This document shows positions 4,810 to 22,712 of a DNA stretch of 24,965 nt, piece after piece. Under the pieces are notes generated by a model that made no database searches, was not told where the DNA came from, and saw only the letters and a list, made by a program, of their open reading frames with translations. This DNA is from a virus: the IMG/VR virus record IMGVR_UViG_3300017732_000060, positions 1 through 24,965 of that record; one strand, given 5' to 3'. Made by a program: the position numbers and the translations under genes. Position 1 is the stretch's first letter; each line of letters begins with the position of its first letter.

Positions 4810-4834
4810 AGGGGGCTAACTACCCCCTTTTTTT
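4810..4834 (+). terminator. rho-independent terminator whose T tract touches the helicase ATG
   Basis: AGGGGG (4810-4815) pairs with CCCCCT (4823-4828) around a seven-base loop, followed by a T run to 4834. The helicase ATG begins at 4835, so the gene has no leader of its own between hairpin and start. Reading into the helicase must come from read-through or from processing at this hairpin. Confidence 0.9.
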
Positions 4835-5758
4835 ATGCTTATAAACTATTCAGATCATATTAACCGACTCAACGACTTTCGTAAAGGCAAGGTAAAAGAA
4901 TCCCTTACGTTAGGTGTAAGAGATTTTGACAAACATTTTAGGTTTGTACATTCAAACTTAGTAATGTGGTTAGGGTTTCCGAACATAGGTAAAACACATT
5001 TTGTTATATACTTAATGATGTTGTATGCAATTAAACACAAACTTAAATTTTTGATTTTTAGCAGCGAAAATGATCCTGTCAGTTTAATTCGCAAAATGAT
5101 AGAAATGTACTTTGGATTACCGATCAACAAAATAGAGGAAGCAGATTATAAAAAAGGTGTAGAGTTTGTAGATAAACATTTTAAATTTGTTGATTGCTCA
5201 AAACAATATACTTATACAAGTTTACTTGATTTAGCTACTAATATAAAAAATGCTTGGGATTATGATTGTTTAATGATAGATCCTATAAACTCATTAAAGA
5301 AAGATATTAAAGCAGGTAGTAATTCGTTTGAATATGGCTATGAGCAGCTATCTGAAATTCGCATCTTCTCCAAAAAACATAACATAGCTACTTGGGTTTG
5401 CTTACACACGAACACAGAAGCTCTTAGAAAAGTACACCCTAAAGGACACGATTTTGAGGGACAACCTGCTGTTCCAAATTATGCGAGTGCAGAAAATGGG
5501 CAGATGAACGCCTCACGATCTTGCGACTTTGTAACACTACATAGATACATATACGATAAAAGAGATTGGATGTATACAAGAATGTACGTTAGTAAGGTAA
5601 AAAACCAAGAACTCGGCTACCGTCCAAACTCGATGAACGATCCTATAATGTGGAAAAGTATTTTAAATAATGTAGGTTTTGAAATCGGAGGTAAAAACTT
5701 AATAAAATATCCAACTAAGAAACAACTAACCATTGACAACACTCGAAAAAATATTTAG
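4835..5758 (+). CDS. DnaB-like replicative helicase (RecA-fold ATPase domain only)
   Basis: This is a 307-aa RecA-fold ATPase. Walker A is GFPNIGKT (47-54) and Walker B is DCLMID (144-149). A strand ending in SSEND (77-81) matches the DnaB H1a position, usually xSLEM. LHTNTEA (191-197) matches the sensor strand. The final part (SCDFVTLHRY, then KVKNQELGYRPN) resembles the DnaB/gp4 C-terminal region that contacts neighbouring subunits. The DnaB N-terminal primase-binding domain is absent, and so is a primase in the window. It should unwind DNA at the phage fork as a hexamer. The ATG directly follows the terminator T tract, and the sigma-like gene overlaps its end by 26 bases. Confidence 0.82.
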   Translation: MLINYSDHINRLNDFRKGKVKESLTLGVRDFDKHFRFVHSNLVMWLGFPNIGKTHFVIYLMMLYAIKHKLKFLIFSSENDPVSLIRKMIEMYFGLPINKIEEADYKKGVEFVDKHFKFVDCSKQYTYTSLLDLATNIKNAWDYDCLMIDPINSLKKDIKAGSNSFEYGYEQLSEIRIFSKKHNIATWVCLHTNTEALRKVHPKGHDFEGQPAVPNYASAENGQMNASRSCDFVTLHRYIYDKRDWMYTRMYVSKVKNQELGYRPNSMNDPIMWKSILNNVGFEIGGKNLIKYPTKKQLTIDNTRKNI

Positions 5759-6236
5759 CAAAAACAAAGATTGGATAAGAATATGTATGTCTTTTGGCTG
5801 CAACAAAACAACAGCACAAGACCTTACAAGCGAAATGTACCTTAAGGTAGCCACAATGCTACAAAACAATCAAAATCTAAATATTGATTACACAGACGAA
5901 GAAATTAATCATTTTTACATCTACAGAATATTAAGATCGTTGTTTATAGATTTATGTCGCAAAGAAGCGAAGATTACAAAAGTAAACATAGAATACTTAG
6001 AAAAGTTCGTAGAGGAAGAAGAAGTAAAAGAATACAAAGACATAGAGGGCAAGATGAAACAATTAGACAACGTGCTTGATAAAGTCTATTGGTATGACAA
6101 AAAAATCTTTAATTTAGTTTCGGAGGGAATGAGCATAGCAGAATTATCTAAGAAAACAAACATAAGTTATTACTCGTTATACAATACATACAAGAACGTA
6201 AAAACATTAATCAAACAAAATATAGAATGGGATTAG
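5733..6236 (+). CDS. sigma-70-family-like transcription factor (phage ECF-type)
   Basis: This is a 167-aa protein. Region-2-like features include WIRICMSFGCNKTTAQDLTSE, then a helix with YIYRILRSLFIDLCRKEAK. The C-terminal part has a region-4-like helix-turn-helix (NLVSEGMSIAELSKKTNISY, then YSLYNTYKNVKTLIK). The middle is acidic (FVEEEEVKEYKDIEG). Length is near the ECF sigma norm. The start is TTG 5733, since no ATG is available until 5785, which would remove the first helix; the TTG overlaps the helicase by 26 bases. It probably binds host RNA polymerase and redirects it. It is the best candidate in the window to recognise the ACGTTATA motif before the structural operons, but that link is inference. 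Confidence 0.75.
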   Translation: MTTLEKIFSKNKDWIRICMSFGCNKTTAQDLTSEMYLKVATMLQNNQNLNIDYTDEEINHFYIYRILRSLFIDLCRKEAKITKVNIEYLEKFVEEEEVKEYKDIEGKMKQLDNVLDKVYWYDKKIFNLVSEGMSIAELSKKTNISYYSLYNTYKNVKTLIKQNIEWD

Positions 6237-8609: not shown

Positions 8610-9454
8610 GAAAGGCAAATGACATATATGATTTTCCTATTGATGAAGTTCAAGATATTTTATTTAAAAACAAATGCAACAAAAAAAAACACGAACACAC
8701 TAAAATTATAGTTCAAAAAGAAATTTTAGATGCTGATATGGATGGAAGAGAAAGAGTTGAACGTTTTAATAAATTTAGAAAACAAGAATGGTTTTATGAA
8801 AAAATACATATTGATATTAGAGATAGTTCGCCACAATATTTTAACGAAAGAATAAGTATACAATTTTATAGAGAAAGAGTAACTCATTGTGCTAATTTTT
8901 ATTCAGAAAACTTATTTGATAACAGAATATCATTTGATGTAAATTATGAAAATGATTATAATTGGATAATAAGTTTTTTAAAAAAACAAATTAAGAAAAA
9001 CAAATATTTTATTCATTTAGAAAAATTATTCTTTTGGATTTTAGTAAAAAAAGATCACTTCAATAAAATACAATTTTGGAGACTTAAAAGCATAGGAGAA
9101 ACATTAGAGAAAAAATTAACTTGGTGGGAAGAACTTTCACGAGAAGGAAGAATTAAAATTATATCAAAACAAGAAAAGTTAGATATAAAAAAACAAGAAG
9201 AAGAAAAACGAAATAAAAAAACCTATATACTTAAAGATAAAAACACAGGTTATTATAAGATAGGTAAATCTATAAATCCACTTAATAGAGAGAAAACCTT
9301 ACAAGCAGAGAAACCAACATACGAATTAATAAAGATATTTAATAACGATATAGAAACAGACTTACATAAAAAATATAAAAAAGAAAATGTAAGAGGAGAG
9401 TGGTTTAATTTAAACAAGGTACAATTAAAATATATATGCACGAGTTATGAATAG
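8606..9454 (+). CDS. GIY-YIG superfamily (MUG113/T5orf172-like) nuclease with a novel N-terminal region
   Basis: This is a 282-aa protein. Residues 206-270 are a T5orf172/MUG113 domain: TYILKDKNTGYYKIGKS (206-222), Arg228 (NPLNREKTLQ), Glu250 (DIETDLHKKY) and GEWFNL (264-269). These are the GIY, YIG, Arg and Glu positions of the superfamily. Residues 1-205 are Lys/Phe/Asn-rich and match nothing I recognise; a charged linker (KQEKLDIKKQEEEKRNKK) joins the two parts. The gene is visibly more A-rich than its neighbours, with runs of AAA codons, which suggests a late arrival as cargo or a homing-type element. It is inserted between the exonuclease and DnaA-like genes with four- and eight-base overlaps. 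Confidence 0.75.
   Translation: MRKANDIYDFPIDEVQDILFKNKCNKKKHEHTKIIVQKEILDADMDGRERVERFNKFRKQEWFYEKIHIDIRDSSPQYFNERISIQFYRERVTHCANFYSENLFDNRISFDVNYENDYNWIISFLKKQIKKNKYFIHLEKLFFWILVKKDHFNKIQFWRLKSIGETLEKKLTWWEELSREGRIKIISKQEKLDIKKQEEEKRNKKTYILKDKNTGYYKIGKSINPLNREKTLQAEKPTYELIKIFNNDIETDLHKKYKKENVRGEWFNLNKVQLKYICTSYE
8957..8975 (+). repeat. 19-bp exact repeat, copy 2 (first copy 4211-4229)
   Basis: This is the second copy of TATAATTGGATAATAAGTT, in frame as YNWIIS at residues 118-123 of the MUG113-domain protein. Confidence 0.6.
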
Positions 9455-9890
9455 AGAGGCAAATAAAATAGCAAAATACATTATAGAAATATCAGGGGTA
9501 AATGTGTTTGAGAACACACGACAAAGAAAACATATAGAGATGAGGTCTTTACTTACCTTTATGTTAAGAAGCCATTGCGATATGACATTTCACGAAATAA
9601 GAGACTTCTATATATCAAAAGGAAAAAGCTACAATCACGCAACAGCTATACATAGTTTTAAAACCTTTGAAGTACACAGAAGATACAATCCTAAAATAGA
9701 TAAGTATTTTGACATAGCACTTCTTAGACTAAGAAACAAATCAAAATTAAGAAAAGCATTAATAAACCACATAGTAGATTACACAAAATCAAAGGACTTA
9801 AAGAAGCTCCTTAGAATAGTAGATACATTACCCTTAAAAGATATAGATGGAAAAGAACAAACAAAAGAGAAAAGAGATACCCTTGTATAG
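9447..9890 (+). CDS. DnaA domain IV-like DNA-binding protein
   Basis: This is a 147-aa protein. Residues 25-75 follow the C-terminal DNA-binding domain of DnaA: TRQRKHIEMRSLLTFMLRS (24-42, like the IVxARxIAMYL helix), MTFHEIRDFYISKGKSYNHA (46-65) and TAIHSFKTFE (66-75). The last two match the EIGxxFGxRDHTTVxHA signature, with YNHATAIHS for DHTTVLHA. The AAA+ domain of DnaA is absent. The rest is a basic helical tail. It probably binds DnaA-box-like sites to start phage replication or to compete with host DnaA. It overlaps the MUG113 gene by eight bases and the MazZ-like gene by 44. Confidence 0.75.
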   Translation: MNREANKIAKYIIEISGVNVFENTRQRKHIEMRSLLTFMLRSHCDMTFHEIRDFYISKGKSYNHATAIHSFKTFEVHRRYNPKIDKYFDIALLRLRNKSKLRKALINHIVDYTKSKDLKKLLRIVDTLPLKDIDGKEQTKEKRDTLV

Positions 9891-10215: not shown

Positions 10216-10331
10216 AAGATAAAAAGTTTACACAAATACAAAGAATAAAAAGATTAGAGAATATAGTAAGCCAAATCTATATAAGTGTTGAGGCAATAAA
10301 ACAACAGCTTGACAAAAAAGAAGAAAAGTAA
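10212..10331 (+). CDS. small coiled-coil protein (39 aa)
   Basis: A 39-codon ORF starts with an ATGA overlap to the MazZ-like gene and ends at TAA 10329-10331, the last A of which is the first base of an ACGTTATA motif. The product (MKDKKFTQIQRIKRLENIVS, then QIYISVEAIKQQLDKKEEK) is a single amphipathic helix with Leu/Ile heptads. Without it 10216-10330 would be empty, which is unlike this compact genome. The function is unknown. Confidence 0.62.
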   Translation: MKDKKFTQIQRIKRLENIVSQIYISVEAIKQQLDKKEEK

Positions 10332-10344
10332 CGTTATATATTTG
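10331..10344 (+). promoter_or_regulatory. late-type promoter motif ACGTTATA before the terminase genes
   Basis: ACGTTATA at 10331-10338 is followed by TTTG, so TATATTTG at 10337-10344 also fits the host -7 element TAnnTTTG exactly. It lies 26 bases before ATG 10365, unlike the other four copies (5 bases). It may serve both host and phage-type polymerase and would leave a leader of about 20 bases. Confidence 0.55.
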
Positions 10345-10364
10345 AATAATCAAAGTTTTTCAAA

Positions 10365-11833: not shown

Positions 11834-11854
11834 TTTCTAAAACTTTTTTTTCTT

Positions 11855-11867
11855 ACGTTATATATAT
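11855..11867 (+). promoter_or_regulatory. late promoter motif ACGTTATA-N5-ATG before the tail block
   Basis: ACGTTATA lies at 11855-11862, with five bases (TATAT) before ATG 11868. If the motif is a -10 element, transcription would start at or next to the A of the ATG, giving a leaderless message. It follows a run of eight T, with no hairpin. Confidence 0.6.
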
Positions 11868-12518
11868 ATGAAAGTAGAGGTTTATATTCCTGATACTCTA
11901 AGCGAGATCACATTAGACAAATACCAAAGGTATCTAAAGATACAAGAGGAGAACACAGACGAGAACTTCTTAGCTATTAAATTGATAGAAATATTTTGTG
12001 GACTAAGAGGCGATACAATAATGTCTATGAAAGCTAAAAGCATCAAAGATATAACACTTATACTTACAGAGATGTTTAATGAGAAACCTCAGCTTGTAAA
12101 AGAGTTTAAACTAAATGGTAAGACTTATGGCTTTATACCTAAGTTAGAAGATATGAGTTTTGGAGAGTACATTGACTTAGATACCTACATAGGAGATATG
12201 GACAACATACACAGAGCTATGAATGTTTTATATAGACCTATCAAACAAAAGTATCAAGACAAATATTTAATAGAGGACTATACAGGAGATGATCCTGAGA
12301 AGATGAAACAAATGCCAATGGATGCTGTATTAAGTTCCATACTTTTTTTTTACAATTTAGGGATGGACTTGTCGAAAACTATGCTGAACTCTTTGGAGGA
12401 CAACAAGGAAATCAACTTAGCTCAGTATCTAACTTCGGAAGAAAATGGGGATGGTATCAATCACTTTTCGGACTCTCTCAGGGAGATATTAGAAGATTTG
12501 AGGATATCACTAAACTAA
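11868..12518 (+). CDS. tail assembly chaperone, frame-0 product (lambda gpG-like)
   Basis: This is a 216-aa protein. The N-terminal part (MKVEVYIPDTLSEITLDKYQ) resembles the domain found at the start of Bacteroidota tail assembly chaperones, followed by helical regions. The end of the shared part reads AVLSSILFFYNLGMDLSK. Residues 159-161 are encoded by CTT TTT TTT, part of a run of nine T (12343-12351) on which ribosomes can slip back one base. Frame 0 continues 55 residues past the slip site to TAA 12516-12518. In siphoviruses the G and GT proteins coat the tape measure during tail assembly; here the tape measure gene lies 4.9 kb downstream. Start ATG 11868 is five bases after ACGTTATA. Identity is inferred mostly from the frameshift layout and position. 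Confidence 0.7.
   Translation: MKVEVYIPDTLSEITLDKYQRYLKIQEENTDENFLAIKLIEIFCGLRGDTIMSMKAKSIKDITLILTEMFNEKPQLVKEFKLNGKTYGFIPKLEDMSFGEYIDLDTYIGDMDNIHRAMNVLYRPIKQKYQDKYLIEDYTGDDPEKMKQMPMDAVLSSILFFYNLGMDLSKTMLNSLEDNKEINLAQYLTSEENGDGINHFSDSLREILEDLRISLN
12344..12350 (+). other. slippery site T_TTT_TTT for programmed -1 frameshift
   Basis: In frame 0 the codons are TTT (12345-12347) and TTT (12348-12350), preceded by a T, so both tRNAs can re-pair one base back. The -1 frame then reads TTA CAA TTT and stays open to 12607. Nine T in all lie at 12343-12351. A single missing T in the assembled sequence would give the same reading, so raw reads should be checked. Confidence 0.7.
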
Positions 12519-12607
12519 ACATACACACCTGTCTTTACGCTTTAAGTTTTATGAAAGAGAAAGCAGAGGTAGAATCAAAGAATATAAAAAGTAAATTCAA
12601 TAGATGA
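12350..12607 (+). CDS. -1 frame extension of the tail assembly chaperone (T part of a GT-like fusion)
   Basis: After slippage at 12344-12350 the -1 frame encodes 85 residues: LQFRDGLVENYAELFGGQ, then a well-formed segment (FGRKWGWYQSLFGLSQGDI, RRFEDITKLNIHTCLYALSF, MKEKAEVESKNIKS). The stop TGA 12605-12607 overlaps the next ATG 12604 (ATGA), the same coupling used throughout this phage, and without this ORF 12519-12603 would be empty. The fusion would be 246 aa. 168 bases are read in both frames, long for this kind of gene pair. The WGWYQSL and HTCLYALSF pattern recalls T-domain sequences of Bacteroidota tail chaperones. There is no independent start codon before residue 68, which argues for translation by frameshifting. 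Confidence 0.72.
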   Translation, partial: LQFRDGLVENYAELFGGQQGNQLSSVSNFGRKWGWYQSLFGLSQGDIRRFEDITKLNIHTCLYALSFMKEKAEVESKNIKSKFNR

Positions 12608-13077
12608 GCAATCAAGGAGTAAGAGGCTATTACCAAATCACACAAACTATAAAGACTAATCTGTTAGCAGATGAGAATGTCAATACTGTAACAACAGGCG
12701 ATATATTTGACATAGACCTATCTAAACAAACAATCTTTCCTTTAAGTCATATAATAGTAAACAACGTAACCATACAAGAACAAGTCCTCAACTTTAACAT
12801 AACAGTAATGTCTATGGATATCGTAGATCAATCTAAAGAAGAAACAACAGACGTGTTTGTAGGCAACAACAACGAACAAGATATTTTAAACACACAATTA
12901 GCTGTAGCAAATAAATTAGTAGGGCTATTAAGCAAAGGAGATTTATATAGAGATAAATACCAAATGGATGGAGATGCTTCTTGTGAGTTCTTCTATGAAA
13001 GGTTTGAAAATCAAATGGCAGGTGTAGCTTGTACGTTTAATGTATTAATAAGTAATGACATTAATGTATGCAGTTAA
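12604..13077 (+). CDS. putative tail terminator/completion protein
   Basis: This is a 157-aa protein beginning MSNQGVRGYYQITQTIKTNL. It has a small alpha/beta layout: GDIFDIDLSKQTIFPLSHI (32-50), strands VNNVTIQEQVLNFNITVMSMDIVD, a helix NTQLAVANKLVGLLSKGDLY and a final strand VACTFNVLIS. This order (N-terminal helix, strands with IFPLxHI, helix LxxxxNxLxxLL) resembles tail terminator proteins that cap the tail tube. It also matches a conserved hypothetical family I associate with flavobacterial phages. It overlaps the chaperone extension (ATGA) and the next gene by ten bases. The assignment rests on fold impression and position. Confidence 0.5.
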   Translation: MSNQGVRGYYQITQTIKTNLLADENVNTVTTGDIFDIDLSKQTIFPLSHIIVNNVTIQEQVLNFNITVMSMDIVDQSKEETTDVFVGNNNEQDILNTQLAVANKLVGLLSKGDLYRDKYQMDGDASCEFFYERFENQMAGVACTFNVLISNDINVCS

Positions 13078-13580
13078 AAAAAGTAAAAAGAGAATTAAAC
13101 AGATTTGCTAAGTATGTTATACAACAAGCAAGAACTAATCTTACAAGAAAGAAAAAAAACTCTACTAAGAAATTGTATGACAGTTTACAATATAGTTTAA
13201 ATGAAACTCCTGATGCTACTACATTAGCTTTCTTTATGGAGGACTATGGATGGTATCAAGACAAAGGTGTAAGTGGTAAAAAAAGAAAGTTTGCTACCCC
13301 ATTTAGTTTTAAATCAAAGATGCCTCCTGCCTCTGCTTTTAGTCAATGGGTAATTAGAAAAGGAATTAAAGGAATAAGAAACAAACAAGGAAAATTTGTT
13401 AAACGTAAAAGTTTGCAATTTATGATGGCAAGAAGCGTGTTTTATTATGGTATTAAACCAAGTATGTTTTTTACTAAACCTTTTGAAAGAGCCTATGACA
13501 AGCTAAAGTTTGATTTACCAAAAAAATTAGCAGAAGATACAGACAAGAATTTTGAATTTTTATTTAACGTAGAAGACTAA
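13068..13580 (+). CDS. HK97 gp10-like head-tail/tail completion protein (putative)
   Basis: This is a 170-aa basic protein. The opening helix (VKRELNRFAKYVIQQARTNL) followed by LYDSLQYSL, FFMEDYGWYQDKGVSGKKR and a C-terminal helix (PFERAYDKLKFDLPKKLAED) match the order of the HK97 gp10/minor tail completion type. In that type an ARxNLTR-like segment and a YGxxQDxG motif precede a long helix ending in a P-F-xx-A turn. The central stretch is very Lys/Arg-rich (GIRNKQGKFVKRKS), possibly for contact with DNA or with an acidic tube. It lies between the terminator-like and tail-tip genes, with 10- and 1-base overlaps. Family call is moderate. Confidence 0.55.
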   Translation: MQLKKVKRELNRFAKYVIQQARTNLTRKKKNSTKKLYDSLQYSLNETPDATTLAFFMEDYGWYQDKGVSGKKRKFATPFSFKSKMPPASAFSQWVIRKGIKGIRNKQGKFVKRKSLQFMMARSVFYYGIKPSMFFTKPFERAYDKLKFDLPKKLAEDTDKNFEFLFNVED

Positions 13581-14539
13581 TGGCAAACATATTATTAAGA
13601 AGTCCGTACTTTGTAACGATTACAACAGCATCGCATTTATCAGCTAAGATGCAACTTACAATAGATGGTACACTTAGATACACAATACTAAAGAACGCAA
13701 CAAGCAATAGAACACTGTTTGAGATAGCAACTCTTGCTAAAGACTATTACACAGAAAGTTATGGAGGTAGTACAGGATCAACTTTTGATACAGTAGCAAT
13801 ATCTTATGTTATTACAACATATACAGGGTTAAACGGAACAGGTACAGGCACAGCTCAAAGTGCAGTAACACACACAGGTTTTTACGGATATTCTTTTTTT
13901 GCTAATGGTAAATCAGCTAATGAAATAGACCCTGATGATTACGAACTTACAAACACAGGAGAAACAAGAATAATATACCTACCTGAAAATACAGCTTCGT
14001 TTGCTTGGGATATGAACTCAGGAACAAAAGATAAAACAACAATAAGCACCTCAGCAACAAGCGTTACCTCAGCATCAGGTCAATACACTTGGACAATAAA
14101 AAGGATATGTAATCCTAAATACGGTTTTGTTCAAATGAGGTTTATAAACAGAAATGGTGCGCCACAAGACTTTCATTTCTTTTTAAAGTCAGTAGAAAGC
14201 GTAAACACTAAAAGCGAAACATTCAAACGTAATATATTCGATTTTGCAACATCTGAATATGACCCTAAAAAACATCAGAACACAGTATTTAACAAATCAG
14301 GTAAAAGAAGATACATATTAAACACAGAATATTTAGTTGAGGATTATAATGCTGTTATTGAGGATATATTATTAAGCGAATATGTATGGATTAAATACAC
14401 ATCATCAGAGGGTAGTAGAACAAGGCCTGTTATTGTTAACACAAGTTCTCTTACTAAAAAGACATCTGTAAACGATAAGTTAGTTCAATACACATTAGAA
14501 GTAGAAGAAGCAAATGATATTATTGATAATGTAGTATGA
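13580..14539 (+). CDS. putative tail-tip or tail fibre-like structural protein
   Basis: This is a 319-aa Ser/Thr/Gly/Tyr-rich, beta-rich protein without hydrophobic segments. The N-terminal part (MANILLRSPYFVTITTASHL) and the middle (TGLNGTGTGTAQSAVTHTGF) look like virion surface proteins. The C-terminal third (SETFKRNIFDFATSEYDPKK, then NKSGKRRYILNTEYLVEDYN) resembles domains found in Bacteroidota phage baseplate/distal-tail proteins, with charged strands and an EDYN helix. No enzyme motif is visible. Position, between completion proteins and the 692-aa tail protein, suggests a distal tail component, perhaps with host contact. Start: ATG in a TAATG overlap. It ends in an ATGA overlap. Confidence 0.55.
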   Translation: MANILLRSPYFVTITTASHLSAKMQLTIDGTLRYTILKNATSNRTLFEIATLAKDYYTESYGGSTGSTFDTVAISYVITTYTGLNGTGTGTAQSAVTHTGFYGYSFFANGKSANEIDPDDYELTNTGETRIIYLPENTASFAWDMNSGTKDKTTISTSATSVTSASGQYTWTIKRICNPKYGFVQMRFINRNGAPQDFHFFLKSVESVNTKSETFKRNIFDFATSEYDPKKHQNTVFNKSGKRRYILNTEYLVEDYNAVIEDILLSEYVWIKYTSSEGSRTRPVIVNTSSLTKKTSVNDKLVQYTLEVEEANDIIDNVV

Positions 14540-16614
14540 AGCGTGAGTTACAATTATATATACAAGATACAAGAGTTGATTTATTTAAAGACGAAACAGT
14601 TAGTCTTACAGATACAATCCAAAATGTCCGTGATATTGCTAAAATCTTCACAACTTTTACAAAGACTTTTACGCTTCCTGCATCACAGGTAAACAACAAA
14701 CTATTTAAGCATTACTACAACTTTGACATATTAGATACAACTTTAACTAAAAGTGCTTTTGATGCTCGTGTAAAAGTATCAGCAAGAATTGAGCTTAACC
14801 TTGTTCCTTTCAAAGATGGTAAAATAAAGTTAGAGGGTGTTGATATGAAAAACAATCAACCCTATGCTTATAGAGTTACATTCTTTGGCAATACAGTTGA
14901 TCTTAAAGACATAATAGGAGAGGATAAACTAAACGTGCTTTCGTCTCTTGATTCTTTAAAAAAAGACTTTAATGCGAGTAATATAAAAACATACTTAGAA
15001 ACAAATCCTGCAAGTAGTGATATTATAGTGCCACTTATAACACACACTCAAAGATTGTTTTATAATAGCAGTAGTTCAGCACACACAGACGACACAGGAA
15101 ACTTATATTATCATACAGGTAGTAGCCACGATCACGGAGTAAGATGGGATAACTTAAAATACGCTATAAGAGTACACAACATCATAGAAGCTATTGAAAC
15201 GAAATACGGATTAACATTCTCAAGTGATTTTTTTACAGAGACAAGCAACGATCAATACTCTAAGTTGTTTATGTGGTTACACAGAAAAAAAGGTGTTGTA
15301 GAAACAGGAGGTCAAATAGCTAACTTTCCAAGTATTGTAGATGGGTGGAGTACAGGTGTAGGAACATCAAGCTATACTCAAATGGTAACGACTACAACCC
15401 TCAGACTAACTGAGGATGCAGAAACATTTGGAACTGCTTTTACTTTATTATTGTTGAATCCTACAGGTACTTATGATATACTTATAGAAAAAGACGGTGT
15501 TAGTTACTATTCTGAAAACGGTATATCATCAACTAAAACCATAAACTTATTTTCGTTAAATGGTGGGGTTGCACAAGCAGGAGACTATACAGTAACAATT
15601 ACAGTTACCTCATCAGTATCTTTTCAGTCTATAAATTGGTCAATAACTACAAACGAATTTGGAACAGTTATTACAGATCAATTTAATACAGGTAGTTATA
15701 CAGCTTCAGCCACATTCGAGTTTGTAATTACAAGTCAAATGCCTGAAATGAAAGTAATAGACTTTTTATCAGGAATATTTAAAATGTTTAATCTTACAGC
15801 ATTTGTAAACAACTCAGGCACAATAGTAGTTAAAACATTAGATAGTTTTTATACAGGTGGCACATCATACGACATAACAGAATATGTTGATATAGAACAA
15901 GGACAAGTTAACGTAGCTTTACCATTTAAAGAAATAAGTTTTGGCTATGGAGATACAGACAGCTTTTTCTCTGCTATACATAATCAGTTATTTAATAAAG
16001 AGTGGGGTACAGTTGACTATAATGATAACGAGTCTTTAGATGGTGGATTGTATAAAATAGAAATTCCATTTGGACATATGAAGTTTGAAAAACTTATTGA
16101 TATTAATGGCTCAAACGAAACAGATACACAATGGGGTTGGAGTGTAGACGATAATCAAGACTCTTATATAGGTAAGCCTGTTTTATTTTATCCTGTATAT
16201 ACGTCTGTAGGCAGTAAAACTATAAGTTTTGTAGATGTTTTAAATCCTGAAACAGGTGTGTTTTCAAACAATGTAGAGATTACAGGATCAATAAATATGC
16301 CAAGTAATTCTGTAGCATTTGCAACAGCAACAAGCACAGCAAATATAAACTTCTTCAATGAGCTTAACGAGTACGAGCCTACCGAAGATTTTTCAGGCAC
16401 GTTATTTAAAAATTATTATGAGACGTATATAAAAACAGTATTTAACAGCAAGAATCGATTAACAAAAATAAAAGCAAGACTACCTATGAATATACTTTTA
16501 AATTATTCTTTAGCAGATAAATTTAGAATAGAGGGAACAGAATACAGAATAAACAGTATAACAACAAACCTAACAACAGGCGAAGCAGATATAGAACTAT
16601 TAAACGTATTATGA
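14536..16614 (+). CDS. large tail-tip/baseplate hub-like structural protein
   Basis: This 692-aa protein is the largest in the window. The N-terminus (LQLYIQDTRVDLFKDETVSL, then TDTIQNVRDIAKIFTTFTKT and FTLPASQVNNKLFKHYYNFD) is a conserved opening of tail proteins in Bacteroidota phages. A carbohydrate-binding-like beta region follows (about 270-400, with many Thr/Ser and GTYDILIEKDGVSYY), then MKVIDFLSGIFKMFNLTAFV (residues 408-427), typical of phage hub or tail-lysin-like domains. The C-terminal barrel ends SLADKFRIEGTEYRINSITT, as in gp27-like hub proteins. It is likely the central tail-tip protein. No peptidase motif was recognised. It is coupled to both neighbours by ATGA overlaps. Confidence 0.62.
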   Translation: MKRELQLYIQDTRVDLFKDETVSLTDTIQNVRDIAKIFTTFTKTFTLPASQVNNKLFKHYYNFDILDTTLTKSAFDARVKVSARIELNLVPFKDGKIKLEGVDMKNNQPYAYRVTFFGNTVDLKDIIGEDKLNVLSSLDSLKKDFNASNIKTYLETNPASSDIIVPLITHTQRLFYNSSSSAHTDDTGNLYYHTGSSHDHGVRWDNLKYAIRVHNIIEAIETKYGLTFSSDFFTETSNDQYSKLFMWLHRKKGVVETGGQIANFPSIVDGWSTGVGTSSYTQMVTTTTLRLTEDAETFGTAFTLLLLNPTGTYDILIEKDGVSYYSENGISSTKTINLFSLNGGVAQAGDYTVTITVTSSVSFQSINWSITTNEFGTVITDQFNTGSYTASATFEFVITSQMPEMKVIDFLSGIFKMFNLTAFVNNSGTIVVKTLDSFYTGGTSYDITEYVDIEQGQVNVALPFKEISFGYGDTDSFFSAIHNQLFNKEWGTVDYNDNESLDGGLYKIEIPFGHMKFEKLIDINGSNETDTQWGWSVDDNQDSYIGKPVLFYPVYTSVGSKTISFVDVLNPETGVFSNNVEITGSINMPSNSVAFATATSTANINFFNELNEYEPTEDFSGTLFKNYYETYIKTVFNSKNRLTKIKARLPMNILLNYSLADKFRIEGTEYRINSITTNLTTGEADIELLNVL

Positions 16615-16748
16615 TAAAAAACATATTAGAGATGCTACCCTATGTAAAGGGAGGATCAGAACTTATAGATATAGCAAAGGGTAAATACAAATACCCTGAA
16701 TCATTTAAGGAAACATTTAAAACTATAAAGGAATGGCACAAAAATTAA
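16611..16748 (+). CDS. small protein (45 aa) before the tape measure
   Basis: A 45-codon ORF starts with ATGA overlapping the previous stop and ends 16 bases inside the tape measure gene. The product (MIKNILEMLPYVKGGSELID, then IAKGKYKYPESFKETFKTIK) is amphipathic and helical with a basic end. Overlap at both ends argues that it is translated. It may be a small tail component or a chaperone; function is unknown. Confidence 0.62.
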   Translation: MIKNILEMLPYVKGGSELIDIAKGKYKYPESFKETFKTIKEWHKN

Positions 16749-18298
16749 TAATGGAGTTAGAAACTCGGACTGACAAGGCTGAGAAAAATATAAACACCAT
16801 AAATAAAGACATAGAAACGCTTAACAAAAACGTAAAAAAAACAGAAAAGGGTTTTGAGGGTGTAGAGAAAGCAACTAAAGACACAGCTAAAGGTGTTCGT
16901 AAAATAGGCACAACTTTAAAAGCTATAGGTATTGGTCTTTTACTTGCAGCATTTACAAAACTAAAAGAAGTGTTTGAAGAAAATCAAAAAGTAGCAGATG
17001 CTTTTAACACAACTTTTAATTTCTTGTCTATTGCGTTTAATGACTTCTTTAATTTTTTAGATGCTAACATAGGAACGGTTGTAAGCTACTTTAAAAGTAT
17101 ATTTGAAGACCCTGTTGAATCTGTTAAAAACTTTGGACAAGCAATATTAGACAATCTTATAGAAAGATTTAATTCTTTTAATAAAACTTTAGCTTTAGTT
17201 TCAAGTTCTGTAATGAAAGTTTTTAAAGGAGATTTTGCAGGTGCTTTAGAAGATGTAAAAAGCGCAGGTAAAGAAGTGGTAGATGTTTTTACAGGGGTAG
17301 ACGATTCATTTAATAAAATAGCTGAAGTTGCACCTAAATTAGTTAAAGGTATTACTGATTACGCTAAATCTTCATTTGAGTCTGCAAAAGCACAAACAGA
17401 AGCTAACAAGGCAGCAGAAATAGCAGTAGCAAGAAACAGAGTAATATTAGAACAAAAAGATAGAGAAGCTGAATTACTTAGACAAATAAGAGATGATGAT
17501 TTAAAAACAATAGATGAGAGAATAGAGGCAAACAATAAGTTAGGCGAAGTATTAAAAGAACAAGAAAAACTTATGTTAGCTAATGCAGATGCTTTAATTC
17601 TTGCAGCAGAATTACAACTAAAAAAGAATAACAACGATGCAAACCAAATAGCACTCTTAGAGGCTAAGGCAGAAAAAGAAGCTGTACTTGCACAAATAAC
17701 AGGTTTTAGATCAGAACAGTTAGCAAACCAAAACGCTTTATTGAGAGAAAACATAGAAGTTGAAGAAGAAGTTGCTGAATCTAAATTAAGAATACAAGAG
17801 ATGGCTGCCGATACAGCTATGAGGGGTTTTCAATTACTTGGTAAAATGGCAGGTAAAAATAGAGCCTTACAAGCAGCAGCAATCATTGGAGAAAATGCAG
17901 CAGGTATTGCAAAACAAATAATACAAACAAAAGCAGCAAACACCGCAGTAACAGCAAAATATGCACTATTGCCCGGAGGGTTAGCATTAGCAAAAGCAGA
18001 AAAGACACTAAATAATATATCTTTAGGTATCGGTATTGCAGGGTCAGTATTAGCAACCTCTACAGCGTTAAAAGCATTAAAAGCAGGAGGTAGTGTATCT
18101 AAGCCAAGTATATCAACAGCAGAGCCAACACCACAAGAACCTGCATTCAATATAGTAGGTCAAAGTACAACAGACCAATTAGCAGATGTTATAGCAGGTC
18201 AAACAGGACAGCCTGTAAGAGCTTTTGTAGTTTCTAATGATGTAAGCACAGCACAAGAACTTGATAGAAATATTATACAAGGAGCAAGTATAGGATAA
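16733..18298 (+). CDS. tail tape measure-like protein
   Basis: This is a 521-aa, mostly helical protein. The first 60 residues form a coiled coil (TDKAEKNINTINKDIETLNK and on). Next is a hydrophobic helix near 62-75 (AIGIGLLLAAF), then long Ala-, Glu- and Lys-rich helices (about 215-360). Another Ala/Gly-rich hydrophobic stretch lies around 385-450, of the sort that may insert into membrane at DNA entry. The tail of the protein is polar (AEPTPQEPAFNIVGQS). These features fit a tape measure. The length is short (roughly 80 nm of tail at about 1.5 angstrom per residue, a rule-of-thumb estimate). Position after the tip proteins, instead of before them, is unusual. It is the last gene of the tail unit. 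Confidence 0.68.
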   Translation: MAQKLIMELETRTDKAEKNINTINKDIETLNKNVKKTEKGFEGVEKATKDTAKGVRKIGTTLKAIGIGLLLAAFTKLKEVFEENQKVADAFNTTFNFLSIAFNDFFNFLDANIGTVVSYFKSIFEDPVESVKNFGQAILDNLIERFNSFNKTLALVSSSVMKVFKGDFAGALEDVKSAGKEVVDVFTGVDDSFNKIAEVAPKLVKGITDYAKSSFESAKAQTEANKAAEIAVARNRVILEQKDREAELLRQIRDDDLKTIDERIEANNKLGEVLKEQEKLMLANADALILAAELQLKKNNNDANQIALLEAKAEKEAVLAQITGFRSEQLANQNALLRENIEVEEEVAESKLRIQEMAADTAMRGFQLLGKMAGKNRALQAAAIIGENAAGIAKQIIQTKAANTAVTAKYALLPGGLALAKAEKTLNNISLGIGIAGSVLATSTALKALKAGGSVSKPSISTAEPTPQEPAFNIVGQSTTDQLADVIAGQTGQPVRAFVVSNDVSTAQELDRNIIQGASIG

Positions 18299-18316
18299 AC
18301 AAAAAAATAATTTAAT

Positions 18317-18329
18317 ACGTTATACATAT
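18317..18329 (+). promoter_or_regulatory. late promoter motif ACGTTATA-N5-ATG before the head block
   Basis: ACGTTATA lies at 18317-18324 and five bases (CATAT) before ATG 18330, in the 31-base gap after the tape measure gene. The upstream sequence is A/T only (AAAAAAATAATTTAAT). There is no terminator between. Confidence 0.6.
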
Positions 18330-19523
18330 ATGAGAATAGTTGAATTGATATTAGGCGATGATGAGTTTACAGGTATTGAGGCTATTTCAGTAGTTGAGAA
18401 TCCTGCAATCGAAGAAGATTTTATAGCACTTAAAAACGAAGAAATAAAGTTAGCAGAGGTTAACAACGAAAAGCGTATTTTAATGGGTGCATTATTAATT
18501 CCTAACAAGCCAATCTATCGTAGAAAAGGCGAAGAAGAATATTACATATATTTCTCTAAAAAGACTGTAGAAAAAGCATCACAGCTTTATTTAATGAATG
18601 GCAATCAGTCTAAAGCAACACTCGAACACCAATACACAATAAACGGACTAACTTTAGTAGAATCTTGGTTAGTAGAAGATGAGGTACACGACAAATCAAG
18701 AAAGTATGGTTTAAATGTTCCTGTAGGTACTTGGATGGGTGCAGTAAAAGTAAACAACAACCAAATATGGGATGAGTTTGTGAAAACAGGTAAAGTTAAA
18801 GGCTTTAGTATTGAGGGTTACTTTGCAGACAAGATGGAAAGACCTAAAGAGCCTGTAAATGACTTTTCTGACTTAGAAGAAGCAGAAGCAAGTGAGATGC
18901 TGTCTTATATAAGATCAATAGTCAAAGAGGACAAGCGTTTAAAGGGTGGTAAGAGGAGAGAACTCGAATCATATAGCGATTACCCTGACGGAGTTAAAAA
19001 CAACGCTAAGAAAGGCTTAGAGCTAAACAAAAAAGTAAACAATAAATGCGCTACACAAGTAGGAAAAGTAAGAGCTACACAATTAGCACAAGGAAAACCA
19101 ATCTCAAAAGAAACTATTAAGAGAATGTACTCTTATTTAAGTAGAGCAGAAGAATATTACGATGAGGGAGATTCTAAAGCCTGTGGTACTATTTCTTTTT
19201 TACTATGGGGTGGTTTAGCAGGTAAGAGATGGTCAGAAAGTAAACTTAAAGAATTAGGAGAAATAGACTTAGCTTCTATGGTAGTCAACGAAGATTTTGC
19301 GATCATAGATGATAGATTAGCATACGCTACAGAAGAAAAAGCATTAGAAGCTGCAAAGAATATAGGTTGTGATAAATACCACACACACGACTTTGAGGGT
19401 AAAACTTGGTATATGCCTTGTGAGGAGCATAATTTAAAAGCACCTTGTCAAGCAGGATATGAGCAATACGGAATGAAAATGAAAAATGGAAGATTAGTAC
19501 CTAATTGTATTCCCATTAAGTAA
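18330..19523 (+). CDS. XkdF-like prohead protease fused to two extra domains
   Basis: This is a 397-aa protein. Domain 1 (1-170) is the XkdF-like/S78-related protease: AISVVENPAIEEDFIALK, RILMGALLIPNKPIYR (49-64), LEHQYTI with His100, and KGFSIEGYF with Ser160, a likely His/Ser pair for capsid maturation. Domain 2 (about 215-312) reads SDYPDGVKNNAKKGLELNKK, NNKCATQVGKVRATQLA, YSYLSRAEEYYDEGDSKACG and WGGLAGKRWSESKLKEL, a module I know from Bacteroidota phage head proteins but whose role is undefined. Domain 3 (about 330-397) has five Cys (CDKYHTHDFEGKTWYMPC and on to the end). It is the first gene of the head unit, five bases after an ACGTTATA motif. Confidence 0.78.
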   Translation: MRIVELILGDDEFTGIEAISVVENPAIEEDFIALKNEEIKLAEVNNEKRILMGALLIPNKPIYRRKGEEEYYIYFSKKTVEKASQLYLMNGNQSKATLEHQYTINGLTLVESWLVEDEVHDKSRKYGLNVPVGTWMGAVKVNNNQIWDEFVKTGKVKGFSIEGYFADKMERPKEPVNDFSDLEEAEASEMLSYIRSIVKEDKRLKGGKRRELESYSDYPDGVKNNAKKGLELNKKVNNKCATQVGKVRATQLAQGKPISKETIKRMYSYLSRAEEYYDEGDSKACGTISFLLWGGLAGKRWSESKLKELGEIDLASMVVNEDFAIIDDRLAYATEEKALEAAKNIGCDKYHTHDFEGKTWYMPCEEHNLKAPCQAGYEQYGMKMKNGRLVPNCIPIK

Positions 19524-19642
19524 TGCCAAGAAAAGTAGTAAGTGTATATATAAAACCTAAACGTAAATCACATCCACACAGCAAAAATGCGAGTGTAGGA
19601 CAAAATAAATATAAAAAACCTTATAAAGGTCAAGGCAGATGA
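19523..19642 (+). CDS. small basic phage protein (39 aa)
   Basis: A 39-codon ORF starts in a TAATG overlap with the protease stop and ends with a four-base overlap to the next ORF. The product (MPRKVVSVYIKPKRKSHPHS, then KNASVGQNKYKKPYKGQGR) is highly basic and ends in the KKPYKGQGR pattern. That pattern recurs in short proteins of Bacteroidota phages next to head genes. It may bind DNA or the acidic scaffold; no function is known. Confidence 0.7.
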   Translation: MPRKVVSVYIKPKRKSHPHSKNASVGQNKYKKPYKGQGR

Positions 19643-19770
19643 AAAAATTTGAAACACCAAGTAAGACAAGTCCAAGAGGAGGACGTAGAGGTTGTTTATG
19701 TAAAGATGAAACCTATTCAGTAAAGTGCTGTAAGGGTAATATAATAAATCAAGGAATCGGTAAAATATAA
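19639..19770 (+). CDS. small cysteine-rich phage protein (43 aa)
   Basis: A 43-codon ORF starts in an ATGA overlap. The product has a basic start (MKKFETPSKTSPRGGRRG) followed by CLCKDETYSVKCCKG and INQGIGKI. The C-x-C-(x)n-C-C-x-G plus QGIG pattern is one I associate with small proteins in Bacteroidota phage head modules. Four closely spaced Cys could bind zinc. It ends three bases before the next start. Confidence 0.72.
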   Translation: MKKFETPSKTSPRGGRRGCLCKDETYSVKCCKGNIINQGIGKI

Positions 19771-19773
19771 GTT

Positions 19774-20100
19774 ATGAGTAAAAAAGCAATGGCTAAGATA
19801 GTCGAAATAAACAAACAAGAATTATCTACAGAAAAAGTAGAGTTAGCTTTAGTTGATGATTTGAAAGATTCAATACTGCGAGGAAGAAACATTGAAAAAA
19901 ATATAAAAAGTGTTTTATCAGGATATAATGGATTGTTAAGAGCAGCACGTAATTTTAAAGCTGATTATGCTACATTAATAAAACAAGCTAAAGAATTAGG
20001 AATTGATCCACCTGCACAATTAAAAGGACTTGAAGATATAGCAGATGGTTTTGAAAAAAAAGGACAAGCAATAAAAAGAGCATACGATCTATTTAGATAA
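19774..20100 (+). CDS. hypothetical helical protein (108 aa)
   Basis: This is a 108-aa, nearly all-helical protein with a helix-rich N-terminus (KIVEINKQELSTEKVELALV), a second part SGYNGLLRAARNFKADYATL and a coiled-coil-like end (GFEKKGQAIKRAYDLF). The IDPPAQLKGLED turn divides two helical hairpins. It lies between Cys-rich and scaffold genes, with only three bases before its ATG. No family recognised; a capsid assembly or decoration role is suggested only by position. Confidence 0.65.
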   Translation: MSKKAMAKIVEINKQELSTEKVELALVDDLKDSILRGRNIEKNIKSVLSGYNGLLRAARNFKADYATLIKQAKELGIDPPAQLKGLEDIADGFEKKGQAIKRAYDLFR

Positions 20101-20127
20101 TATAAAAATGCAAATATAAATTTTAAC

Positions 20128-20140
20128 ACGTTATAGTAAT
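20128..20140 (+). promoter_or_regulatory. late promoter motif ACGTTATA-N5-ATG before scaffold and capsid
   Basis: ACGTTATA lies at 20128-20135 and five bases (GTAAT) before ATG 20141. It would supply the scaffold and major capsid genes with their own strong late start, in addition to read-through from 18317. Confidence 0.6.
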
Positions 20141-20719
20141 ATGAAATCAACAGAAATCTTAAACAAAATCAAAACTTTCTTAGGAGAGGAAAAAATTGAG
20201 GAACAAGTAGAAGAAACTCAATTAGAAGAATCACAAGAGAAAGTCGAGTTAGCACAAGCTAAACTTGATAATGGTACAGTATTAGAAGCTGAGGCTTTTG
20301 AAGCAGGAAACGAAATCTTTATTGTTACTGAAGATGAAAGAGTAGCAATGCCTGTAGGAGAATATATGATGGAAGATGGTCAAATGCTCGTAGTAAGCGA
20401 GGAGGGAATCATCGGAGAGATCAAAGCACAGGAAGCAGAAGAAGTAGAGGCTGAAGAAGAAGAAGAAATGGCTTATGTATCAAAAGAAGAATTTGAATCT
20501 GCCGTTGAGGAAATCAAAGGTATGATAAACGAGCTAAAGGACAAGAAAGAAGAAATGGCTGAAGTAGAGGAGCAAGTAAAACAAGAACTAAGCGAAACTC
20601 CTGCAACTGAGCCTATCACTCACAATCCTGAAGCTAAAGAAAAATTTAAAGTAAAATTTGGTCAAAACAGACCTGAAACTGCTTTAGATAGAGTAATGAA
20701 AAAATTAACCAACAATTAA
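20141..20719 (+). CDS. capsid scaffold-like acidic protein
   Basis: This is a 192-aa very acidic protein. An N-terminal helix (MKSTEILNKIKTFLGEEKI) is followed by a Glu-rich segment. A small beta domain comes next (LDNGTVLEAEAFEAGNEIFI, then VAMPVGEYMMEDGQMLVV), then Glu runs and a coiled coil (EEFESAVEEIKGMINELKDK). The C-terminus is basic (KFKVKFGQNRPETALDRVMK), as in scaffolds that bind the capsid shell. The gene directly precedes the major capsid gene by ten bases, the classical position. The LDNGTxxEAExFExGxEIF motif recurs in Bacteroidota phage scaffolds. A DNA-mimic role is less likely given the position. Confidence 0.75.
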   Translation: MKSTEILNKIKTFLGEEKIEEQVEETQLEESQEKVELAQAKLDNGTVLEAEAFEAGNEIFIVTEDERVAMPVGEYMMEDGQMLVVSEEGIIGEIKAQEAEEVEAEEEEEMAYVSKEEFESAVEEIKGMINELKDKKEEMAEVEEQVKQELSETPATEPITHNPEAKEKFKVKFGQNRPETALDRVMKKLTNN

Positions 20720-20729
20720 AATTTAAAAA

Positions 20730-21653
20730 ATGCCAAATCCAACAATTACAAGTAGTAGTTATGCAGGAGAGTTTGCAGGTAAATACATTGCTGCATCTTT
20801 ATTAACAGCAAAGACCTTAGATGATGCTGCGATAACTATTATGCCAAACATTAAGTACAAAGCTGCTATGAAAGTAGGAACATTTACAAACTTAGTAAGA
20901 AGTGCTGACTGCGACTTCGATGCAACGACTTCAGGTCTTACACTTGCTGAAAAAGTATTAACACCAACTGAATTACAGGTAAACCTACAGATTTGTAAAA
21001 AAGAATTACACGCTGATTGGGAAGCTGCACAAATGGGATATTCTGCATTTGACAACTTACCTCCACTATTCTCTGATTTTGTAATCGCAAGAGTAGCTGC
21101 TGAGGTAGCAAGTGCAACTGAAACTTCTATATGGGCAGGTCAAGCAGCAGAGGGAAACTTTAACGGTTTTGTAAAACTTGCTACAGATGACGGAACTGTA
21201 GTAGATGTTGCAAAAGCAACTGTAACTTCTGCAAACGTAGTTGCTCAATTAGGAGCTATTGTAGATGCTATTCCAAGTTCAGTTTACGGAGCAGATGACC
21301 TTGTTATTTATGTATCACAAAACATTTACAGAGCTTACATTAGAGCTTTAGGTGGTTTCGGTGCATCAGGTTTAGGAGCTAATGGTTACGACAATAAAGG
21401 TAACAACCAATCATTAGGAGGTTTATTCTTTGATGGTATCAAGATTTATCCAACATCAGGCTTTGCAGACAACAATGCAATGGCTGCAAGATCAAGTAAC
21501 TTATTCTTTGGAACAGGTCTATTAAACGACAGAAATGAAGTAAAAGTAATTGATATGTCAGATATCGATGGATCACAAAACGTAAGAGTAGTAATGAGAT
21601 ATACAGCAGGATGCCAAATTGGTGTTGGTGCTGATGTAGTTCTTTATTCTTAA
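20730..21653 (+). CDS. major capsid protein (HK97-fold)
   Basis: This is a 307-aa protein. After MPNPTITSSSYAGEFAGKYI it has KVLTPTELQVNLQICKKELH (a P-loop-like strand and spine helix start), long helix FSDFVIARVAAEVASATETS (spine), then a beta-rich A-domain with AIPSSVYGADDLVIYVSQNI and YRAYIRALG, and a closing strand VRVVMRYTAGCQIGVGADVV. This order fits an HK97-fold capsid protein. Length is within the usual 280-400. Base composition is more GC-rich and codon-regular than elsewhere, as expected for a highly expressed gene. No N-terminal delta domain is evident, in agreement with the separate scaffold gene. A terminator follows after 25 bases. Confidence 0.85.
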   Translation: MPNPTITSSSYAGEFAGKYIAASLLTAKTLDDAAITIMPNIKYKAAMKVGTFTNLVRSADCDFDATTSGLTLAEKVLTPTELQVNLQICKKELHADWEAAQMGYSAFDNLPPLFSDFVIARVAAEVASATETSIWAGQAAEGNFNGFVKLATDDGTVVDVAKATVTSANVVAQLGAIVDAIPSSVYGADDLVIYVSQNIYRAYIRALGGFGASGLGANGYDNKGNNQSLGGLFFDGIKIYPTSGFADNNAMAARSSNLFFGTGLLNDRNEVKVIDMSDIDGSQNVRVVMRYTAGCQIGVGADVVLYS

Positions 21654-21678
21654 TATTTTAACTAACATATAAGAGGGT

Positions 21679-21704
21679 GGGTAGTAGTCTGCCTACCCTT
21701 TTTT
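21679..21704 (+). terminator. rho-independent terminator after the major capsid gene
   Basis: GGGTAG (21679-21684) pairs with CTACCC (21693-21698) around an eight-base loop, followed by six T (21699-21704). The next gene starts 14 bases later with no late motif before it, so its expression seems to depend on read-through. Confidence 0.85.
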
Positions 21705-21717
21705 AATACTAATAATT

Positions 21718-22242
21718 ATGGCTTGTACATTAACAACAGGTAGAAAAGTCCCTTGTAAATCGGCAGTAGGTGGTCTTAAGACTGTTTACTTTGCAGATTA
21801 TGGTACTCTTGGTGTTGCTACGATTGTAGGAGGAGAAGTAACTGCTTTAGCAGGAAGTCCTGCTTTATTTCAGTTTGATATAAAAGGCAATTCTTCTTTA
21901 GAAACTGCAATCAACAGCTCAAGAGAAAACGGAACTACATTCTACGAATCAACATTAAACTTGACACTTACGTTTCTTGAAAAAGCAACACAGGAAGAAC
22001 TAAAATTAATCGCACACGCAAGACCACACGTTTTTGTAGAAGATTATAATGGTAATTACTTTGTGATGGGATTAGAACACGGAGCTGAGGTTACAGGTGG
22101 ATCGATTGTGAGTGGAGCTGCTATGGGAGACCTAAGTGGATTTACCTTAACAATGGTTGCACAAGAAACTGCGCCTCCATACTTTATTACAGGATCAGTT
22201 GTAACAGGAGATGCAAGTGCAACACAAATAACACCGAATTAA
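21718..22242 (+). CDS. putative major tail (tube) protein
   Basis: This is a 174-aa beta-rich protein. MACTLTTGRKVPCKSAVGGL opens with two Cys; then KTVYFADYG, FQFDIKGNSSLETAINSSRE, NGTTFYESTLNLTLTFLEKA, FVEDYNGNYFVMGLEHGAEV, TGGSIVSGAAMGDLSGFTLT. The order of strand-rich repeats and the LGLExGAEVTGGSxxSGxAxGDxxGFTLT block resemble phage tail tube proteins of Bacteroidota phages. It lies between two terminators, behind the capsid gene and ahead of the portal unit, away from the other tail genes. It could also be a capsid decoration protein. Confidence 0.55.
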   Translation: MACTLTTGRKVPCKSAVGGLKTVYFADYGTLGVATIVGGEVTALAGSPALFQFDIKGNSSLETAINSSRENGTTFYESTLNLTLTFLEKATQEELKLIAHARPHVFVEDYNGNYFVMGLEHGAEVTGGSIVSGAAMGDLSGFTLTMVAQETAPPYFITGSVVTGDASATQITPN

Positions 22243-22301
22243 AAATAATTTTTGTATATTTATAAAAGTTTTCATCAATTATATTTAGTTTTTTGAATTA
22301 A

Positions 22302-22329
22302 GGGGGAGTTTTCGGACTCCTCTTTTTTT
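22302..22329 (+). terminator. rho-independent terminator after the tail-tube-like gene
   Basis: The stem GGGGGAGT (22302-22309) pairs with ACTCCTCT (22316-22323, with two G-T wobbles), around TTTCGG, followed by seven T (22323-22329). The preceding 22243-22301 is A/T-rich with nothing else evident. Confidence 0.88.
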
Positions 22330-22351
22330 ATACACAAAATTTAAAGTTTGT

Positions 22352-22364
22352 ACGTTATATAAGT
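22352..22364 (+). promoter_or_regulatory. late promoter motif ACGTTATA-N5-ATG before the portal unit
   Basis: ACGTTATA lies at 22352-22359 and five bases (TAAGT) before ATG 22365. A terminator ends 22 bases upstream, so this motif is the only obvious way to transcribe the portal genes, which strengthens the promoter reading. Confidence 0.65.
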
Positions 22365-22712
22365 ATGATACACTTAACGACATCTGCATCAGCTCAAACT
22401 TTAAAAGTAATACCAAGAAGTTATGCAAGTTCTGTTAGTATGATTCTAAGAGACGATTCAACAAACACCTCAACGACATACACAATAAGCACAACAACAG
22501 ACAAAAACTATTTAGTGTTATCACAAGCATTAAGTCCTGTACTTGTAGAGGGTAGATTCTACGACCTCACATTAAAAGAGGGAAGTAATGTAATATATAA
22601 GGATAAAGTTTTTTGTACAAATCAAACTATTTCAAGTTATTCAGTAAATAATGCAGAATATACTGTACCAACAGGAAACGATGTCTATGATAATGATTAT
22701 ATTGTAATATGA
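22365..22712 (+). CDS. small beta-rich structural protein (115 aa)
   Basis: This is a 115-aa beta-rich protein: MIHLTTSASAQTLKVIPRSY, SVSMILRDDSTNTSTTYTIS, then LSPVLVEGRFYDLTLKEGSN and VIYKDKVFCTNQTI. The FYDLxLxEGxNVIYKDKxFC strand pair is a conserved motif I associate with a small structural protein next to portal genes in Bacteroidota phages. It probably has an Ig-like or jelly-roll fold and could decorate head or neck. It starts the unit five bases after a late motif and overlaps the portal ATG by four bases. Confidence 0.65.
   Translation: MIHLTTSASAQTLKVIPRSYASSVSMILRDDSTNTSTTYTISTTTDKNYLVLSQALSPVLVEGRFYDLTLKEGSNVIYKDKVFCTNQTISSYSVNNAEYTVPTGNDVYDNDYIVI

Follow-up and report, generated by a model that had tools for sequence, protein, structure and literature searches.

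A candidate late promoter joined to the start codon and probably read by a phage-encoded ECF-type sigma factor

The gp55-dependent late promoters of phage T4 have the sequence TATAAATA; they are dominated by the -10 element and served by a small phage sigma factor, while T4 late transcription also requires the sliding clamp and gp33 and yields messages whose leaders have Shine-Dalgarno sites. According to one report (PMC8948821), the gp36 sigma of phage phiEco32 uses middle and late promoters of the form tAATGTAtA, with the start 6-8 bases downstream, and the late sigma gp47 of phage 7-11 uses bipartite promoters, GTAAtg-16-aCTA. For the non-virion RNA polymerase of phiKZ, the late promoters are given as TATG with the G as the start point, as cited in PMC5312081. 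Among flavobacteria, the extracytoplasmic function (ECF) promoter motif SM6 of Flavobacterium psychrophilum has a CGT box at -10, and 5.5% of the messages of this species are leaderless (PMC9723704); in F. johnsoniae, 87% of leaders are longer than 10 bases (PMC6847099). Here we analyze the octamer ACGTTATA in the IMG/VR virus record IMGVR_UViG_3300017732_000060, the whole of which (24,965 bases, G+C about 32%) is called the window below, together with an ECF-type sigma factor gene of the same record.

We propose, with a probability of about 0.8, that ACGTTATA is the -10 element of a late promoter read by the phage ECF-type sigma, and that transcription starts on the ATG in four operons. The host RNA polymerase carrying the phage-encoded sigma (open reading frame, ORF, 5733-6236) would read a bipartite promoter composed of AAA at -29 to -27 followed by ACGTTATA at -13 to -6. 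Transcription would begin 6 bases past the -10 element. For four late operons out of five, this is the A that opens the start codon, and their messages would be leaderless; the terminase message would have a leader of about 21 bases. The sequences themselves show the motif and its spacing, the conservation, the -1/+1 signature, the homology of the sigma and its covariation with the -10 element, and from these we infer the binding of the sigma to this promoter, its late expression and the exact 5' ends; late firing is deduced from the genes that the promoters serve.

In agreement with the first-pass annotation of this DNA, ACGTTATA occurs on the + strand at 10331, 11855, 18317, 20128 and 22352, each time ahead of a structural block, and nowhere else on that strand; one further copy, absent from that annotation, lies on the - strand (3049-3056). 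Against this total of six, 0.97 copies are expected, and six copies were not reached in any of 100 shuffles. When up to one mismatch is allowed, the number of sites is at chance level (36 against 32.9 expected), so that the exact octamer alone is special. As had also been claimed, the copies at 11855, 18317, 20128 and 22352 are followed by exactly 5 bases and then ATG; these ATGs are the earliest possible starts of their ORFs, and homologues of the four products align from the same residue. Not one of 1000 random anchor sets in the window gave an 8-mer with four occurrences at a single fixed distance from gene starts. The predicted -10 elements are located at 11855-11862 (predicted start 11868, the A of the ATG; upstream element TAAAA, -30 to -26, at 11838-11842), at 18317-18324 for the protease operon (start 18330; CAAAA at 18300-18304), at 20128-20135 for the scaffold/capsid operon (start 20141; CAAAT at 20111-20115) and at 22352-22359 for the 22365/portal operon (start 22365; CAAAA at 22335-22339), all on the + strand, the last one after the hairpin and T-run that end the capsid block. 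The space between genes ahead of the -10 element measures 18-27 bases in three cases, and the promoter therefore fills it.

The anatomy of the element was derived from a logo of the 65 NCGTTATA sites left after thinning similar ones, with positions counted from the A of the ATG. AAA occupies -29 to -27 at 86-95% and the octamer -13 to -6, so the putative promoter consists of two elements, the upstream AAA and the -10 octamer. A T stands at -1 in 98% of these sites, against 48% of other starts on the same contigs. The terminase sites, which are not beside an ATG, have T at -1 in 19 of 21 thinned cases and a purine at +1 in all 21. Since this T/purine step is kept without an adjoining start codon, the start point appears to be set by the promoter, and its fixed distance from the -10 element places it on the A of the ATG in the other four operons. 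Leaderless late messages are thus a prediction from the fixed T(-1)/purine(+1) and N5 signature. The first-pass annotation suggested a -10-type element specific to the phage, with the ATG as the transcription start; every sequence-based test that we applied supports this, the start point itself being predicted.

For comparison with related phages, we collected 80 contigs with a homologue of the window sigma and scanned 50 records for the motif. ACGTTATA-N5-ATG is present in 33 of the 50, with at most five copies per record, confined to one strand within each record, and the reversed-pattern control gave 0. Octamer counts at all ORF starts were too noisy in the sigma-centred loci. With homologous genes as anchors, the motif is seen to be retained at the 11868, protease, scaffold and 22365 genes at protein identities as low as about 40%, and it is missing from inner genes, for example those of the capsid and the tape measure. 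Conserved flanking genes without a conserved motif would have spoken against the original proposal; the relatives present the opposite outcome, the same operon heads keeping the motif. NCGTTATA-N5-ATG is found at these operon heads across dozens of phage contigs, and the exact 5-base spacing is maintained across many different gap sequences. When contigs of at least 22 kb were reached via the capsid or the motif instead, 21 of 22 had the sigma, and CGTTATA-N5-ATG occurs in 20 of these 21 carriers, the remaining one (G060) being of the WTTATATA type.

The proposed recognizer of these promoters is a 167-residue ECF-type sigma encoded on the + strand (5733-6236) by a gene of the replication block, which precedes the structural genes. 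Its full length aligns with TIGR02937 (sigma70-ECF) at E=4.4e-11, and a family member in the relative G059 scores 43.7 bits, above the cut-off of that family. A Pfam search at the default cut-off missed the window sigma; NCBIfam and a fold comparison found it. The AlphaFold model built from 14 homologues has helices for both domains (region 2 and region 4), and with this model Foldseek returned ECF sigma structures from the Protein Data Bank at all of ranks 1-19, with probabilities of 0.96-1.00, including M. tuberculosis SigE, SigH and SigL, E. coli sigmaE, AlgU, SigW and BldN. A sequence search of solved structures gave weak ECF SigE matches only (E 0.18). The length agrees with the two-domain ECF (group 4) layout of about 160-200 residues. 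ORF 5733-6236, which the first-pass annotation had not brought up, is the likely recognizer of the late promoters. Its TTG start lies inside the end of the helicase gene, as in most close relatives, which suggests low, coupled expression. A hairpin of a G-run and a C-run with a T-run (4810-4834) abuts the helicase ATG (GGGGGCTAACTACCCCCTTTTTTT ATG) and is conserved in relatives; it is a terminator-like element before the helicase-sigma pair that possibly gates sigma expression.

The -10 element changes together with the sigma. In clade B, whose sigma is about 57% identical to that of the window, ACGATATA stands at the same genes. Some contigs reached via the capsid, not via the sigma, have WTTATATA, TTGATATA or AAGTTATA in place of the octamer, with a similar upstream element and T(-1). 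At the same genes, L164 and L195 have TTGATATA and L156, L177, L179 and L182 have AAGTTATA; no sigma gene was found on these six contigs, which are short. Another of the capsid-reached contigs, G060, has a distant sigma whose relatives form clade C. WTTATATA-N4-T-ATG is present in all 16 long clade-C records (1-4 copies each, control 0), and NCGTTATA-N4-T-ATG in none of them. In a comparison of 48 records holding both genes, the -10 type changes twice on the sigma tree, the minimum, with support of 100/100 for clade C, and six times on the capsid tree (5-6 times in bootstraps, with A and C labels). The -10 element therefore follows the sigma and not the neighboring capsid gene. The capsid tree implies about four module exchanges, which add weight to the covariation. 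Larger, unmatched sets give 3 changes for the sigma and 12 for the capsid, one of the 3 being a lone ACGATATA match (L376).

The promoters of ECF (group 4) sigmas are characterized by a CGT-type -10 and an AAC-type -35. At -12 to -10, clade A has CGT, clade B CGA and clade C TTA. The region 2.4 sequence is DL[CHK]RK in most members of A and B; in C, with TT in place of CG, it is N[TI][HY]KK. The putative recognition helix of region 4, YYSLYNTY, is near-constant in the three clades, and so is the AAA element. In four records the sigma is without this helix, and there the upstream element is another one, mostly (G)AAACAAAA. The upstream element is ACAAAA/TAAAA here, AAAAC in the phage P12024S discussed below and AAACAAAA in group II; the promoters are tied to the sigma through covariation only. 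Any assignment of sigma residues to promoter bases is an inference. On balance we also favor, with less confidence than the promoter itself, a broader picture for a whole group of Bacteroidota phages. Leaderless messages would supply most of their virion proteins; the -10 specificity of the sigma would have changed at least twice (from ACGTTATA to ACGATATA and to WTTATATA), every late promoter changing along with it; and the sigma and its promoters would be able to associate, as a pair, with different capsid lineages.

At the terminase operon, the predicted -10 element ACGTTATA (10331-10338, + strand) points to a start at G 10344 and a 21-base leader; its upstream, -35-like element CAAAA (10313-10317, + strand) is 1 base farther off than at the other promoters. 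In the window and its relatives the terminase copies are 26-34 bases from the ATG and retain the motif, the spacing and the upstream element. A conserved (near-)palindrome, TTGAATAATCAA (10342-10353, + strand), covers the predicted start point. Nearly all relatives have TTGA[AT]TAA[AT]CAA over or just past this point, and a copy of CAA follows ahead of the ATG; this looks like an operator or a leader structure peculiar to the terminase operon. The - strand copy at 3049-3056 is located at the lysis/early junction with near-copies at 3063-3070 and 3089-3096: ACGTTACA, ACGTTATC and ACGTTATA stand in a row between the lysis genes and ninG and point at the lysis genes. All three are exact in the relative L030. 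These copies may drive late transcription in the antisense direction or form a block where the late and early regions meet.

Several observations weigh against the proposed promoter-sigma system. In some relatives the gap at some operons is 6, 9 or 17 bases, so that leaderlessness is not universal, and leaders of about 1-12 bases are predicted at one or more of their operons. The window sigma scores 42.7 bits against the TIGR02937 cut-off of 42.9, and its best Pfam match, Sigma70_r2, is weak and below the Pfam cut-off. Its structural model is of middling quality, with a predicted local distance difference test (pLDDT) value of 75 and a predicted template modelling score (pTM) of 0.44, and TM-scores over the entire length are low (0.3-0.4), as the two domains do not superpose together as a single body. 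The sigma tree contains just two -10 switches, and independent events are therefore few. The contigs compared are for the most part fragments. Finally, a Bacteroidota host is a guess from relatives only, the closest named phage being the Nonlabens phage P12024S/L.

A real promoter with its start a few bases upstream or downstream would give leaders of 1-5 bases or the loss of the first bases of the gene. Sigma-dependent start points typically shift by a base or two, and a few relatives have gaps of 6-9. We nevertheless regard this as unlikely, given the near-invariant T(-1)/purine(+1) even where no ATG follows and the exact 5 conserved over many different gap sequences.

Slightly more doubtful is a late promoter read by a host sigma, either an alternative one of the ECF kind or the primary one helped by a phage activator, with the phage sigma doing something else. 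Several ECF sigmas whose promoters carry a CGT box do exist in flavobacteria (PMC9723704), and the TATATTTG overlapping the terminase copy agrees with the -7 consensus of the host. Yet it is the clade of the phage sigma, and not the capsid tree, that the -10 element tracks. The host-type TATATTTG that the first-pass annotation had pointed to at the terminase operon did not hold up, as it is not conserved and relatives have TATAATTG or TATACTTG; nor is TAHHTTTG enriched in the window (19 against 25.9 expected). We rejected a Bacteroidota primary-sigma promoter (TTTG/TAHHTTTG), as the -7 element is absent at four of the five sites and the terminase copy is not conserved.

That the element is an operator, or a box near gene starts bound by a repressor or activator of the phage, is very improbable. 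The clustered - strand set (3049-3096) and the palindrome after the terminase copy would fit such a box, against which the element is directional, has a fixed offset to the ATG and an upstream partner at a fixed distance, and varies with the sigma clade. We rejected as extremely improbable that ACGTTATA-N5-ATG acts in translation, as a ribosome site of a non-Shine-Dalgarno type on the message: the fixed distance to the ATG and the lack of Shine-Dalgarno sites in Bacteroidota (PMC6847099) would suit it, but the terminase copies 26-34 bases from the ATG retain the motif, its spacing, the upstream element and the -1/+1 step, the motif stands at operon heads only and is absent from genes inside operons, and the upstream element would lie beyond ordinary ribosome contact. 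A chance origin was rejected on the shuffles (0/100 with six copies) and the random anchor sets (0/1000 with the fixed offset).

The gene order of the window runs from tail and lysis genes through the replication block to terminase, tail, protease, scaffold, capsid and portal. The block labels of the first-pass annotation were broadly right for TerL, the protease-like and capsid-like proteins and the portal; the 11868 product, labeled as tail, is of unknown function (phrog_32199). A 147-residue protein (9447-9890) has no family match at useful E-values and resembles, by eye, the DNA-binding end of DnaA. Patterns matched in a search for host or prophage copies in 84,980 genomes, and none was confirmed. 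Riemerella phage RAP44, a relative via the terminase, has an integrase and no annotated sigma.

The closest named phage, P12024S/L (portal 37%, terminase 57%), is also the only cultured phage in which a profile search found a related sigma; it is too distant for tblastn, by which the window sigma has no match in cultured phages (E 1e-2 or 1). Its gp33, annotated as Sigma-70 region 2 and encoded just before the terminase, matches the family profile at 6.6e-9. In P12024S, CGTTA stands 12 bases before the ATG at six genes and AAAAC 34 bases before six; with random anchors, any 5-mer reaches five in 1 of 500 sets and never six. AAAACAAA-N-CGTTAATA lies ahead of start codons at 179, 3031, 5412, 21280, 23961, 25201 and 26802 (contig L125). 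The C of CGTT is also 12 bases before the ATG in the window family, which points to the same plan with another -10 element. P12024S/L thus resembles the window in its Sigma-70 region 2 protein and in the positions of CGTTA and AAAAC, and differs in that its -10 element is CGTTAATA instead of ACGTTATA and its -1 base mostly T or C instead of T. No description of the P12024S promoters was found in the titles and abstracts of the literature searched.

The window combines a sigma gene with matching promoters before the structural operons of the same phage, the arrangement of a phage late sigma regulon. Such late sigma factors are already known; as far as we found, what is new is this phage group and a design that is fused to the ATG and switches together with the sigma. 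Neither this promoter, nor the sigma family, nor a start-codon-fused late promoter in these phages is described in the part of the literature that we searched. If the broader picture is true, late infection would also be a switch in the mode of translation, the hosts' own messages being rarely leaderless, and with most late messages leaderless in a phylum without Shine-Dalgarno use, the cost and handling of such messages would become measurable. The system would also provide a readable late-gene code for a large group of uncultured phages, whose late operons and starts could be called from sequence alone, and a natural series of sigma/promoter pairs with a near-fixed region 4 and a changing region 2, in which ECF-type -10 recognition is testable by in vitro swaps.

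Among the described systems, phiEco32 gp36 likewise steers the host RNA polymerase to the heads of middle and late blocks (PMC8948821), whereas its promoters have a single element with no -35, a different sequence and a different host phylum, and leaderless messages are not described in the available part of the report. The bipartite late promoters of 7-11 gp47 lie at the same places as those of a related phage that has a different sigma, so that sigma (15% identity) and promoter have co-diverged (PMC8948821), but the consensus is unrelated, the case is one phage pair and not a series, and the same part of the report does not describe fusion to the start codon. Flavobacterial ECF promoters share the CGT in the -10 region (PMC9723704), while SM6 belongs to a host regulon induced by low nutrients. 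In phiKZ, recognized bases of the late promoter also lie at the start point, but the enzyme is a phage multisubunit polymerase with no such sigma. The T4 gp55 system is alike in its -10-dominated late promoter and small phage sigma, and unlike in its need for the clamp and gp33 and in messages that carry Shine-Dalgarno leaders.

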